From Clostridiales bacterium DTU073 (GTDB lineage: Bacteria; Bacillota; Peptococcia; DRI-13; DTU073), in NCBI GenBank assembly GCA_001512665.1, contig LFSF01000015.1, positions 27,951-81,204 of the forward strand: a DNA stretch of 53,254 nt, in the 5' to 3' direction. Shown one piece after another: positions 1-10,031 of the stretch; the stretch's first letter is position 1; the number at the start of each line of letters is the position of its first letter. The notes below the pieces were generated by a model, which searched no databases, was not told the DNA's origin, and was given only the letters and a program-made list of their open reading frames with translations. Made by a program: the position numbers and the translations under genes.

Positions 1-1626
1 GCTGACGGCAGTGGCAGTGCGTTTACAGCCACAACAACAGTAACAGGAAATACAACCCTATACGCAAAGTGGACAATCAAGCAGTATACACTAACTTATA
101 CAGCGGGTTCCAATGGCAGTATTACTGGGACCAAGACCCAGACCGTCAATCATGGTGCCAGCGGGTCGGCAGTAACAGCAGTGCCGAATACGGGTTATCA
201 CTTTGTGAAATGGTCTGACGGCTCAACTGCTAACCCGCGTACAGATACCAATGTAACCGGTGATATATCAGTGACGGCAGAATTTGCGATTAATACCTAT
301 ACAGTTACTTTTGACAAAAACGGGGGAGATACAGAAGCAAATCCGCAAACCAAGACAGTGACACATGGCGGGAATGTGGGCACTCTGCCCACCGCACCCA
401 CCAAAACAGGCTGTACCTTTACCGGCTGGAATACTCAAGTTAACGGCAGTGGTGACGAATTTACAGAAGATACACCGGTGACAGGTAACATTACCGTATA
501 TGCGCAGTGGGTAGTTAATGTAACCGGAGTTAGCCTGAATAAGAGTTCGATAACCTTGGCGGTAGGGGCGTCAGAGACGTTGGTGGCGACAGTATCGCCC
601 TCTAATGCGACGAATAAAAATGTGACATGGAGTAGTAGTAATACAAATGTTGCTACGGTAAATAGTAGTGGAACAGTGACGGCAAAAGCTGCCGGAACAG
701 CAACGATTACTGTAAAAACAGTTGATGGAGGAAAAACTGCGACCTGTACTGTGTCAGTACCATATGTAATGGGTGCATCTTGGACAGTAGGACCAGACAC
801 TCCTTTAACCAGACTTGGTGATGCAGTAGGAAAAACTCCGGGAGCTGACTTTGATAATATCTATCCGTGGAGTGAGATGACGACACTTACACAAAATGGA
901 CAGACTGTAGTAAAAATACCAAAATTTTATTATAAGCGTACCTATGATGGGACAAAGCATGAATTTTGGATAACGAATACACCCTTGCCAGAATTTAAGC
1001 TACATCCGGCCTTTTTGCGTAATGGTGTTGAAAAACCTTATATTTTCGTCGGGGTAGGCAAATTTTCTGATCCAGGTGGATACACGTCGTGGCAGTGGTG
1101 TCGTCAAACAGCCCAAAGTTACGGCACAGGTTGGGACCTAATGGATATTCAAACCTGGAGTGCTATTCAAATACTTTGGTTGGTTGAATATGCTGATACC
1201 AATAGTCAAAAATTTAGTGCTAATTATCGCGGGATAAATGGATTATGGACTAATCCGGGGCAATATCTTAATGGGATTTATATTAGGAGCGGTAGTGTTT
1301 ATGTTGCGGGGACAAATACAGGCTTAATTGTGGATTATGGAGACTTTATTAAGAACTGGCAATATTCTTCTGATTATGATTGGCTTTTCATACCTAGTGC
1401 CTATAATCCGGATTACCCAACTCATTTTTATACATATATACCTGATATCTTTAACCATGCTAAACAATATTCAACACCGCAGGTGGTCCATGTAGGCTTC
1501 GATTACTACTGCACTCTCTCTAATGAATCTGCCCAATATGAAGCCGGTTTGTTTAAAATGGGAGCAGTTTACGAAGAAAGAAATGGAATCAAGAACCTAG
1601 GCGGGCGTGCCCAATATATCCCTTAA
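1..1626 (+). CDS. Surface protein with InlB-type repeats, Ig-like Big_2 domain and C-type-lectin-like tail (5' partial)
   Basis: The frame is open from the first base, so the GTG at 181 in the ORF track is internal and the gene begins outside the window. The visible part starts with Listeria-Bacteroides/InlB-type beta repeats (units ending in LYAKW and VYAQW, with GYHFVKWSDGS and FTGWNTQVNGSG). A bacterial Ig-like Big_2 domain follows (VTGVSLNKSSITLAVG to ATITVKTVDGG), then about 280 residues opening with IPKFYYKR and containing SAIQILWLVEYADTNSQ. That last part resembles phage/DGR-associated proteins with an FGE-sulfatase/C-type-lectin fold, and it ends GLFKMG...LGGRAQYIP. Inference: an exported adhesin or ligand-binding protein displaying a lectin-like domain at its C-terminus. 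No LPXTG anchor or transmembrane tail is present. The last 45 or so codons are unusually rich in C-ending codons (TTC, TAC, TAC, TGC, CTC), as in DGR variable regions. Confidence 0.7.
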   Translation, partial: ADGSGSAFTATTTVTGNTTLYAKWTIKQYTLTYTAGSNGSITGTKTQTVNHGASGSAVTAVPNTGYHFVKWSDGSTANPRTDTNVTGDISVTAEFAINTYTVTFDKNGGDTEANPQTKTVTHGGNVGTLPTAPTKTGCTFTGWNTQVNGSGDEFTEDTPVTGNITVYAQWVVNVTGVSLNKSSITLAVGASETLVATVSPSNATNKNVTWSSSNTNVATVNSSGTVTAKAAGTATITVKTVDGGKTATCTVSVPYVMGASWTVGPDTPLTRLGDAVGKTPGADFDNIYPWSEMTTLTQNGQTVVKIPKFYYKRTYDGTKHEFWITNTPLPEFKLHPAFLRNGVEKPYIFVGVGKFSDPGGYTSWQWCRQTAQSYGTGWDLMDIQTWSAIQILWLVEYADTNSQKFSANYRGINGLWTNPGQYLNGIYIRSGSVYVAGTNTGLIVDYGDFIKNWQYSSDYDWLFIPSAYNPDYPTHFYTYIPDIFNHAKQYSTPQVVHVGFDYYCTLSNESAQYEAGLFKMGAVYEERNGIKNLGGRAQYIP

Positions 1627-1628
1627 AA

Positions 1629-1674
1629 CAAGTAGGGGACGGGAGGTGTTCAACCCCCTCCCCACTTTTGTTTT
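1629..1674 (+). terminator. Hairpin with T-rich tail after the surface-protein gene
   Basis: An imperfect GC-rich stem (AAGTAGGGGACGGGAGG paired with CCCCCTCCCCACTT) sits three bases after the stop codon and is followed by TTTTGTTTTATTT. It reads as an intrinsic terminator. Because it directly follows a DGR-like variable tail, it could also serve as the hairpin often found downstream of DGR target regions. Confidence 0.65.
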
Positions 1675-1781
1675 ATTTCAAACCTTGTGTGTGTAATGGC
1701 TGAGCAAATAAGTTTTGCTTGATTTTTTATATTAAAGTGATATCATTATTATATAAAAATGATAAAAGAGGAGTGCTATCT

Positions 1782-2624
1782 ATGAAGGAAAAAATAGTAT
1801 GGAGGATTAATGGTTTTGTTGCCCTCGTCTTGATGTTGCTGCTTTTAGCCGGTTTGATTTACAGCTTTATCAGATTAGAGTTTGTTTTGGGTAGTGTCTT
1901 GACGTTTGTTTTTATTGTCGTTGCGGCGGGATTGCAAATAGTTCAACCTAATCAATCCGCAGTATTAACCTTTTTCGGGAGATATGTGGGGAGTATACGT
2001 GAAGCAGGTTTTTGGTTTACGATTCCTTTTTGTGTAAGTAAAAAAGTATCCTTACGCGTCCGCAATTTCAATACCGAAAAAATCAAGGTCAATGATGTGG
2101 AGGGAAATCCCATTGAGATTGCGGCGGTGAATGTCATTAAAGTTGTAGATGCTGCTAAGGCTGCCTTTGATGTAGATGACTATGAGGAATTTGTGAAGAT
2201 TCAAAGTGAGGCTGCTTTAAGACATGTGGCCACAAAGTATCCCTATGATATTTTTGAGGAAAATGGCAGTTCATTAAGAGCAAACACCGAAGAAGTTGCT
2301 GCGGAAATTGCCACTGAATTGCAGAATCGTCTAGCTTTAGCAGGTGTTGAAGTAATTGAGGCTCGTCTAACTCATCTTGCTTATGCTACGGAAATTGCTA
2401 GTGCCATGTTACAACGTCAACAGGCCACAGCAATTATTGCTGCCCGTCAGAAGATTGTGGAAGGCGCAGTAGGGATGGCTCAGATGGCGATTGAGCAATT
2501 ACTGCGGGATGGGACGGTAGAACTTGACGAAGAACGGAAAGTAGCGATGGTTAACAACTTATTAGTAGCAATTGTTTCCGACCGGTCTGCCCAACCAGTA
2601 CTTAATACCGGTTCATTATATTAA
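1782..2624 (+). CDS. SPFH/Band 7 domain membrane protein
   Basis: The start is the ATG at 1782, eight bases after AAAGAGGAG; the ORF-track start at 1719 adds 21 residues without a ribosome site. The 280-residue product has two adjacent hydrophobic segments at the N-terminus (around [18 protein letters not shown] and [16 protein letters not shown]). An SPFH/Band 7 domain follows ([29 protein letters not shown]), then a helical C-terminal half rich in Ala, Gln and Glu ([20 protein letters not shown]). Proteins of this family oligomerise on membranes and organise microdomains or regulate proteases; the specific role here is unknown. The next gene, 23 bp on, encodes a small ribbon-helix-helix protein, and this pairing appears to recur in Bacillota and Bacteroidota, so the two probably work together. 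Confidence 0.85.
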
Positions 2625-2647
2625 TGAGCTATTGATGAGTTGGTCTT

Positions 2648-2845
2648 ATGGCTAAAAAAAAGAGCTTTTTGATTAGGATAGAACCGCAATTATATGAGGT
2701 CTTGGAGCGCTGGGCAGCAGATGAATTTCGCAGTGTGAATGCACAGATAGAATACCTTTTACGGGAAAGTGTACGAAAAGCAGGACGTTTGTCTGTAGGA
2801 AGCAAAAAACAGGAAAGAGATGACCTGGGAGAAAAGGATAAATAA
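2648..2845 (+). CDS. Arc-like ribbon-helix-helix small protein
   Basis: A 65-residue protein with an Arc/MetJ-type ribbon-helix-helix pattern: a beta strand ([15 protein letters not shown]) followed by [27 protein letters not shown]. The C-terminal tail is charged ([13 protein letters not shown]). It follows the SPFH gene by 23 bp and shares its terminator. Known members of the fold bind DNA as dimers. Proteins of this type beside SPFH genes are often annotated as toxin-antitoxin-like, but no toxin is present. Inference: a DNA-binding regulator or an adaptor of the SPFH protein. The ribosome site is weak (GATGAG), which suggests translational coupling. Confidence 0.75.
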
Positions 2846-2852
2846 GATAAAG

Positions 2853-2887
2853 AAAAATAGACCGGTACTGGTACGGGTCTATTTTTT
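2853..2887 (+). terminator. Intrinsic terminator of the SPFH-RHH operon
   Basis: AAAATAGACCGGTAC pairs with GTACGGGTCTATTTT (one mismatch), and the right arm runs into a T tract, eight bases after the stop codon of the RHH gene. Confidence 0.85.
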
Positions 2888-2966
2888 ATGGAATCAGTAA
2901 TTAAAAACAGTGAATAATAATAGAAAAATAAAGGATTAATAATTCAAGAGAATGAAGGAGAAAAAA

Positions 2967-3662
2967 ATGGCCTGTTATATCGGGATTACTTGCGGCTGGG
3001 AGGAAAAAAAGAACTGGCATAAGCTCCATGATGAGTACGTCTGTGCGGTAAATGCAGTGGGCGGAGTGCCTTTTTTGTTACCTAGTCTTGATTCTCCGGA
3101 ATTAGTTGCTGTATATTATAACCAGTTGGATGGCTTTATTTTTACCGGGGGGAGTGACCTTGATCCTCATTATTTTGGCGAGGAACCACAGGAGAATTTG
3201 GGTGAGATAACTCCTCAGAGGGATGCTTTTGAAATGGCTTTAGTGCGTCTGGTTTTAGCAGGAAACAAACCGGCGTTGGGTGTCTGCCGGGGGCTTCAGC
3301 TTTTAAATGTGGCAGCAGGCGGCACATTATATCAGGACTTAAAAGGTGTTAGTGATTTAATGCATAATCAGCAGGCACCTCGTTGGTATCCTGTTCATAC
3401 AGTGCAGGTAGAGCAAGATAGCAGGTTGTTCAGATTGGCTGGGCAGGAATCTTTCTTAGTGAATAGTTTTCATCATCAGGCGATTCGTCAGTTGGGGCAA
3501 GGTTTTAGAGCTGTAGCTTGGAGTAAAGACGGTTTAATTGAGGCGATGGAGTCTACCGGCGATAAAAAGATTATGGCTGTACAGTGGCATCCTGAATGCA
3601 ATTGGTCCAGTGACCGCATTTCTTTGTCACTATTTAAAAATCTTGTAGAGAGTGCTCGTTAA
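2967..3662 (+). CDS. Class I glutamine amidotransferase-like hydrolase (peptidase C26, PuuD type)
   Basis: The ATG at 2967 is chosen because AAGGAG lies six bases upstream; the ORF-track ATG at 2952 would put that site inside the gene. The 231-residue protein has the C26 triad: nucleophile Cys in GVCRGLQLLN, and His and Glu in VQWHPE. Other family signatures are FTGGSDLDPHYFGEEP and NSFHHQAI. Relatives hydrolyse gamma-glutamyl-gamma-aminobutyrate or related gamma-glutamyl compounds. The next gene, an L-asparaginase II, begins 27 bp later, so the pair may release ammonia and dicarboxylic amino acids from amides for catabolism. The exact substrate cannot be read from the sequence. Confidence 0.85.
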   Translation: MACYIGITCGWEEKKNWHKLHDEYVCAVNAVGGVPFLLPSLDSPELVAVYYNQLDGFIFTGGSDLDPHYFGEEPQENLGEITPQRDAFEMALVRLVLAGNKPALGVCRGLQLLNVAAGGTLYQDLKGVSDLMHNQQAPRWYPVHTVQVEQDSRLFRLAGQESFLVNSFHHQAIRQLGQGFRAVAWSKDGLIEAMESTGDKKIMAVQWHPECNWSSDRISLSLFKNLVESAR

Positions 3663-3689
3663 TGGAGAGAATAAGGAGGATATACGAAT

Positions 3690-4703
3690 ATGGAAACCGT
3701 AAAATTAGCAGAAGTAACCAGAGGCAGCCTGGTAGAAAGCATCCATCGCGGGGCTGTTGCGGTGGTGGATACAAAAGGTAAACTCTTGGCTTCAGCAGGT
3801 AATCCGCAATATCTTACTTATTTTCGTTCTGCCGCGAAACCGATACAGGCTATACCTGTGCTTGAAAGTGGTGCTGCTCAGTATTTTGGTCTTGACTTAC
3901 AAGAGCTTGCCATTTTGACCGGATCACATAATGGTGAAGTGCAGCATACGGATACAGTTTTGGCGATTTTACGAAAAATAGGCTTAGGTGAGGAATATTT
4001 GCAGTGTGGGGTCCATGAGCCTTTACATAAACCCAGTCGGGATGCGTTGTTGTCTAAAGGATTAAAGCCGACATCATTACATAATACATGCTCAGGTAAG
4101 CATGCAGGAATGTTGACTTTGGCTAAATATCGGGGTGTATCTTTAGAGAATTATTTTCGACCGGAACACCCGGTTCAACAGGAAATGTTGAGAACGGTAG
4201 CGGAAATGGCCGGCGTAACACCTGAGCAAATACCGGTGGGAATTGACGGATGTGGAGTTCCTGTTTTCGGACTGCCCTTGGAGAAAATGGCCTATGCCTA
4301 TGCCCGGATATCTGCATCGGAGGATAACGGTTTAACGGAGACCAGAAAGGAAGCATGTCATCTCATCAAAAAAGCAATGACTACACATCCTTTCATGGTG
4401 GGCGGTACGAATCGTTTTGATACGGAGTTACTTGCAGTTGCCGGAGGGAAACTAATTGCGAAGTTTGGGGCAGAGGCTGTATATTGTGTAGGTATAGCGG
4501 AAAAAGGCTGGGGGATAGCCATAAAGGTGGAAGATGGTAACTTAAGGGCCTTGCCTCCTGTAGTTCTTGCCGTCTTAGAACAGTTAGAGGTATTAACAAG
4601 CGAGGAAAAAGAAATACTCTCTGATTATCGGCAAAGGAGGTTAACTAACCATCGGGGAGATATTATTGGTGAAATAAGAGCAGTTGTTTCACTGGAACAC
4701 TGA
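3690..4703 (+). CDS. L-asparaginase II family protein
   Basis: 337 residues matching the thermolabile (Rhizobium etli type) asparaginase II family rather than the AnsA/AnsB fold. Motifs include RSAAKPIQAIPVLESGA, SHNGEVQHTD, NTCSGKHAGMLTLAK and GIDGCGVPVFGLPL. It should convert L-asparagine to aspartate and ammonia in the cytoplasm; no signal peptide is seen. The ATG at 3690 has AAGGAGG about ten bases upstream. It is cotranscribed with the C26 hydrolase (27-bp gap). No clear terminator separates it from tex, which starts 110 bp later. Confidence 0.88.
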   Translation: METVKLAEVTRGSLVESIHRGAVAVVDTKGKLLASAGNPQYLTYFRSAAKPIQAIPVLESGAAQYFGLDLQELAILTGSHNGEVQHTDTVLAILRKIGLGEEYLQCGVHEPLHKPSRDALLSKGLKPTSLHNTCSGKHAGMLTLAKYRGVSLENYFRPEHPVQQEMLRTVAEMAGVTPEQIPVGIDGCGVPVFGLPLEKMAYAYARISASEDNGLTETRKEACHLIKKAMTTHPFMVGGTNRFDTELLAVAGGKLIAKFGAEAVYCVGIAEKGWGIAIKVEDGNLRALPPVVLAVLEQLEVLTSEEKEILSDYRQRRLTNHRGDIIGEIRAVVSLEH

Positions 4704-9453: not shown

Positions 9454-9526
9454 ACAGACACATTATTTGTGTTAGGTTTAAGCATAGTGTTGTAGATTTT
9501 GCAAGTAAAATTTTGCTGTGTGGATT

Positions 9527-9558
9527 TAAGTAAAGAGGTGCAGGTAAGTAAAGAGGTG
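9527..9558 (+). repeat. 18-bp tandem duplication carrying the rimI ribosome site
   Basis: TAAGTAAAGAGGTG occurs at 9527-9540 and again at 9545-9558, separated by CAGG, giving 1.8 copies of an 18-bp unit. Each copy contains GAGGTG. Only the second is correctly spaced from the rimI ATG at 9564. Confidence 0.9.
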
Positions 9559-9563
9559 TATTT

Positions 9564-10031
9564 ATGGCTCTGAATACAAAGTATCTTTTGCGACCGATGG
9601 AAGAGAAAGATATACCGCAGGTTGTAGAGATTGAAAAACAGTCGTTCTCCTGTCCCTGGTCACCGTATGCTTTTAAGTGTGAATTAGCAGACAATGAATT
9701 TGCGTATTATTTAGTCGTAACTACAGAAGATAACCAAGAATTAGTCTTAGGTTATGGTGGGATGTGGCTGATCATTGATGAGTCCCATATTACGAATATT
9801 GCTATTGCTCCGGAGCATCGTGGGAAAAAATTGGGTGAGCTTCTTATGGGGGGGTTGGAGGCATTAGCGTTGCAAAAAGGTGCGTTACGAATGACATTAG
9901 AGGTACGGGTTTCTAACGAAAAAGCTCAGACCCTTTATAAAAGAAGAGGATTTGTTCCTTCCGGGATTCGTCCTAATTATTATGCTTTGGAAAATGAAGA
10001 TGCCCTTATTATGTGGAAGGAATTTTTCTGA
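9564..10031 (+). CDS. rimI: Ribosomal protein bS18-alanine N-acetyltransferase RimI
   Basis: 155-residue GNAT acetyltransferase. Visible motifs are the N-terminal EIEKQSFSCPWSPYAF, the acetyl-CoA loop IAPEHRGKKLGELLMGGL and EVRVSNEKAQTLYKRRGF, all typical of RimI. It acetylates the N-terminal Ala of ribosomal protein S18 and sits in its usual place between tsaB and tsaD. It starts 110 bp after tsaB, downstream of a duplicated ribosome site. Confidence 0.92.
   Translation: MALNTKYLLRPMEEKDIPQVVEIEKQSFSCPWSPYAFKCELADNEFAYYLVVTTEDNQELVLGYGGMWLIIDESHITNIAIAPEHRGKKLGELLMGGLEALALQKGALRMTLEVRVSNEKAQTLYKRRGFVPSGIRPNYYALENEDALIMWKEFF

Follow-up and report, generated by a model that had tools for sequence, protein, structure and literature searches.

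The first gene of the window, by which we mean the whole 53,254-nucleotide stretch of DNA analysed here, raises the question of whether its 3' end is, or once was, the variable region (VR) of a DGR target, and if so what became of the element that rewrote it. The window begins inside the gene, directly 3' of a 170-N run in contig C18 of its own genome (G000), a draft of 1.67 Mb in 52 contigs that is 96.4% complete. According to Pfam and a reading of the upstream sequence, positions 1-1626 (plus strand) are the 3' part of a gene for a surface protein with SLH, Big_2 and List_Bact repeats, while the 5' part, which contains an in-frame TAA, precedes the window on the far side of the assembly gap (C18, L002:18350-19780). 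With L002 included, the Pfam order is SLH domains, Big_2, List_Bact/InlB repeats, a second Big_2 and the C-terminal domain. Within the window, InlB-type/List_Bact repeats (Flg_new_2 and Flg_new by Pfam, 85-507, plus strand) and a Big_2 Ig-like domain (520-753, plus strand, Pfam, 9e-18) presumably form a stalk. They are followed by a C-type-lectin-like domain at the C-terminus, of the type found in DGR variable proteins (763-1623, plus strand), recognised from RT-adjacent homologues, an AlphaFold2 model and a PDB fold match. The 3' end of the ORF codes ...AGLFKMGAVYEERNGIKNLGGRAQYIP* and closes with a TAA stop codon (1624-1626, plus strand).

The 170 N (L002:19781-19950) fall in the repeat region of the gene and abut the window start. 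Approximately 1.1 kb upstream of the window the TAA (L002:18869-18871) splits the third SLH domain, with the frame open on both sides; because it stands in frame within that domain, the surface-protein gene is either a pseudogene or affected by an error in the assembly consensus. A prophage origin of the gene was considered and ruled out, because the neighbouring genes are chromosomal (an alanine racemase fusion, a MazEF-like pair, SPFH, peptidase C26, asparaginase II and Tex) and the protein has SLH domains. At the syntenic site, mazF and the peptidase gene have nothing between them in G003 and G004, G005 has other genes there, and in G008 (L178, contig C12) an SLH protein runs towards the contig end; the comparison is compatible both with loss of a cassette from the window site and with no such loss.

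The C-terminal domain carries no Pfam family name. Its relatives occur in four genomes of the same bacterial family and on viral and bacterial contigs; G000 has a single copy, whereas the genomes of relatives have several paralogous targets each. Tail-protein families in PHROGs also span the domain (phrog_5302, 3e-19). Of the fetched homologues, 46 have a complete 3' end, and in 17 of these a reverse transcriptase (RT) like P0001 lies no more than 3 kb away. P0001, the intact RT of G004 and the reference for RT-linked loci, has its best PDB match in 8ub7 ('Reverse transcriptase', 6e-31), which we take to be the BPP-1 DGR RT. A PDB sequence search with the domain gave no match and a fold search alone gave one: the AlphaFold2 model (pLDDT 87, pTM 0.90) is best matched by TaqVP of Thermus aquaticus (5vf4; E 7e-7, probability 1.00), a DGR variable protein, yet at 15% identity and a TM-score of 0.52 over the query, and all other matches are at E >=0.098. 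The window gene, like a DGR target, ends in a domain of C-type-lectin type that has known variable proteins as relatives.

Members of the same bacterial family provide the closest comparison. The DGRs of G008 (L117 and L118) and G004 (L119 and L120) have a lectin domain and a VR homologous to those of the window, but possess their own template repeat (TR) and RT (truncated in G008, intact in G004), neither of which is detectable in the window's genome. At L118 the SLH-anchored architecture is also shared: an SLH-Big_2-List_Bact-lectin protein with its VR at 9485-9599 is followed by the TR (9841-9955, 88.7% identity) and then by an N-terminally truncated RT from 9967. Mutagenesis at adenines was assessed over a 60-nt core containing 16 template adenines and 44 other bases, and in G008 the VR and TR differ at 8/16 of the former and 1/44 of the latter (p=4e-5). 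Phage-borne DGRs with homologous targets also exist, and that of Psychrobacillus phage Perkons (MT325768, ORF176 and ORF175) served as a positive control. Its protein, homologous to the window's C-terminal domain, adjoins an annotated RT and, unlike in the window, RT and TR are both present and all mismatches (32/32) fall at template adenines. ORF176 (L159:2818-3882) is annotated as 'hypothetical protein' and is the DGR variable protein, with the template downstream.

The initial annotation had described a tail resembling those of DGR variable proteins and enriched in C-ending codons, and both descriptions hold. The tail (1480-1623, plus strand) is homologous to the VRs of genuine DGRs, both phage-borne ones and those of its own bacterial family: global alignments to the VR tails of G004 and G008 give z=7.0 and 6.5, with 0/500 shuffles as good, and a further tail-to-VR alignment gives z=4.8. 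The segment that aligns with the VRs of bona fide targets lies at the extreme C-terminus, and it retains GLF-x15-GxR-xx-IP as its frame, 7 residues being inserted ahead of GLF. A profile of distant, confirmed DGR VR tails did not, when used alone, recognise it. The last 45 codons of ORF 1-1626 include 14 ending in C, which is 14/28 of those ending in C or T compared with 25/123 in the 224 codons before (Fisher p=0.003, uncorrected). None of 899 overlapping 45-codon stretches in the window's other long ORFs reaches 14, and three neighbouring genes have a C3 of 9-13% and at most 8-10 C-ending codons per 45; within the gene's own ORF, 30/497 stretches reach that number, some of them upstream of the tail. 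The codon string quoted in support of the enrichment was nevertheless selective, as it skips GAT and ACT. A run of ten C/T-ending codons at 1495-1524, the longest in the ORF, was discounted, as at a C/T-ending frequency of 0.53 it is not unusual enough. Raised C3 and GC are a general trait of VR segments in the window's bacterial family, and what the window tail shows is no more than a remnant of this.

The same annotation had attributed the C-ending codons to adenine mutagenesis of AAC codons, a reading that direct comparison with the templates of two relatives refutes. The G000 assembly contains no template of its own, and the test of the window is a cross-genus one. Over the core segment from LF to GGR (1549-1608, plus strand, placed by alignment), the tail differs from the G008 and G004 templates at 7/16 adenines and at 26/44 or 28/44 other bases (p=0.91 and 0.95), whereas genuine VRs in the same test against the G008 template give p=4e-5, 5e-4 and 3e-5. 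Mismatches in the window tail are not concentrated at template adenines as they are under an active DGR. Between GLF and GGR, 5/15 core codons end in C or T compared with 11/15 in three test-passing VRs and, unlike in live VRs, several are A-rich (AAA, GAA, GAA and AGA). As the adenine pattern is absent and the core has so few C/T endings, the C-ending bias is not the print of recent adenine mutagenesis.

The sequence immediately downstream also bears on a DGR past. RT-linked relatives have the motif GGGGG-NNN-GGGGGC-GRYCA-GCCCCC just 3' of the target stop, G008 among them, with a family consensus of stem GGGGGC, loop GRYCA and stem GCCCCC and paired changes at two positions. The motif is found at 15/17 RT-linked targets and at 0/26 RT-less homologues whose downstream sequence extends to 1 kb or more (p=9e-10, related loci not being independent). 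When a covariance model of this hairpin, built without the window sequence, was used in cmsearch, its best match in the window was 1634-1661 (plus strand, 20.4 bits, E 0.028), which is also its sole match at E<=10 in the whole of G000. The genome-wide E of 0.87 is not significant by itself, and the match is convincing because of its position, 8 bases past the stop, rather than its score. The GC-rich hairpin noticed beyond the stop in the initial annotation is real and, by the family model, of the DGR post-VR type. It is a degenerate copy, a relic with 2/7 pairs non-standard and the loop GTTCA. An Rfam scan of 1-4000 gave no match. BPP-1 likewise has a GC-rich stem just 3' of its VR, but with a 4-nt GRNA loop compared with the 5-nt GRYCA of the window family (PMC3240598). 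Three DGR-type targets have a second, weaker post-VR hairpin ~90 bases past the first (L118:9704-9729, L117:5705-5730 and L123:4047-4072). A perfect post-VR hairpin at a G005 target (L123:4126-4159), with no RT or template found nearby, marks a candidate remote or recently orphaned target.

The hairpin also bears on the simplest alternative, that the gene was never a target in this lineage and encodes an ordinary lectin-like surface protein sharing ancestry with DGR targets, the hairpin being a transcription terminator. A T-rich stretch does lie 3' of the stem, the tail has no adenine pattern and many homologues have neither RT nor hairpin, all of which this reading would accommodate. We nonetheless consider it unlikely: a terminator scan does not list the hairpin, none of the 26 RT-less homologues has one whereas the window gene has the only match to the DGR-hairpin model in its genome, and the tail retains VR-like C3 and GC.

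No RT or template repeat had been seen in the window, and that absence extends to the whole assembled genome. Searches with PF00078 and the G004 DGR RT found no RT in assembled G000, although the same query matches G003, G004 and G008. No second copy of 1200-1640 was found in G000, nor any TR downstream of the gene, nor any match to the TR or TR-RT spacer of relatives; no template repeat matching the tail is present. Avd-type PF05635 matched no genome searched and none of 14 control genomes. The window gene thus lacks, as an active DGR, all of the tested defining features that gave a clear answer. These absences are limited by the fact that assemblies break at TR/VR repeats; in G004, for example, a contig ends at the TR.

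This limit leaves some room for a live remote target, with a DGR RT and template in the unassembled ~4% of the genome or on an unbinned element still rewriting the tail. The draft state of the assembly and the location of the G004 template are compatible with such an arrangement, and remote targets are known in Treponema denticola (PMC4891356). It is quite unlikely here because RT, template and spacer are all missing from 1.67 Mb of a 96% complete assembly; moreover, the few C/T endings and several A-rich codons of the core are unlike those of live VRs, and two hairpin pairs are non-standard, where BPP-1 requires its post-VR hairpin for efficient homing and shows no detectable homing once the stem is disrupted (PMC3240598). 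Of the two possibilities originally proposed, a remote or an orphan target, it is the orphan that best explains the data and the remote target of a live DGR that is disfavoured. Diversification of the tail by other means, either through gene conversion between copies or through a phage- or plasmid-borne DGR working in trans, might be suggested by the paralogous targets of relatives and the DGR-bearing phages with homologous targets, but is extremely improbable as the single domain copy in G000 leaves no donor for conversion and the adenine pattern is absent.

Probably, then, the window tail is a VR that was orphaned by loss of its DGR and is now frozen, a leftover of a kind known from other bacteria. 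Absence of RT, TR and adenine pattern had been named at the outset as grounds for abandoning a DGR interpretation; it does argue against an active target, but leaves an inactive relic unaffected, because the relic rests on homology, fold and hairpin. The protein would be anchored to the cell wall by its SLH domains, which bind the envelope, with the Ig-like repeats as a stalk and the C-type-lectin-like tip available to bind ligands; a role as an adhesin, present or past, is probable. The DGR variable region of relatives occupies the final ~40 codons of the tip: the RT copies a template RNA from close by, making mistakes at adenines, the cDNA replaces the VR, and the GC-rich hairpin just past the stop aids that replacement. 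In G000 the RT, template and spacer appear to have gone, or are at least absent from the assembly; the target gene would have remained while its tail and hairpin drifted and diversification ended. The tail itself was presumably once diversified, and hairpin and tail together suggest that G000 once had a cassette and lost it, an undated event viewed through the one genome of the genus compared.

Other members of the family appear to be at different stages of the same process. G004 has an intact RT and a template that runs off the end of its contig, the RTs of G008 are truncated and G003 has RT fragments. In G005 (L124:4300-5064) a TR-RT spacer match lies beside a target gene, with a degenerate template relic and an RT 3' end that were read by eye. 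At G008 L117:3000-5825 the template start occurs twice, the second directly before the N-terminally truncated RT, with a DUF1016/PDDEXK-like gene between them; this is either a rearranged DGR or an assembly artefact. Across the bacterial family, DGRs seem to form a gradation between intact and lost, part of which assembly errors could mimic.

Orphaned targets are already known as a kind, having been described in T. denticola isolates without the core DGR, where target genes remain with neither RT nor TR and are read as leftovers of lost DGRs (PMC4891356). The window gene resembles these in being a surface-protein target without RT and TR; in the T. denticola VRs, however, most differences from known templates still fall at adenines, whereas in the window tail, in a cross-genus comparison, the pattern is gone. 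The window gene is therefore a further, more eroded orphaned target, in a different bacterial group. An open-access literature search for DGR, S-layer homology and 'variable protein' found no match, which is weak evidence on novelty. Orphaned targets tend to stay unseen because the RT is the starting point of most DGR surveys, and a large metagenome survey notes that targets lying away from the RT escape it (PMC8144416).

What is new here is that, in the protein family of the window, the post-VR hairpin marks targets independently of the RT. Its near-perfect division of RT-linked from RT-less members therefore offers a handle for finding orphan or remote targets without an RT. Also new is a series of DGR decay states within one bacterial family. 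It is a highly speculative extension, and probably wrong as it stands, that this family of Clostridia-like bacteria repeatedly loses its DGRs while keeping the hypervariable surface proteins, whose frozen repertoire might serve as ordinary adhesins or might be re-diversified by a DGR whose template matches and which enters the cell on a phage or plasmid. The decay series itself could be useful for asking what becomes of a hypervariable binding protein once its diversification stops.
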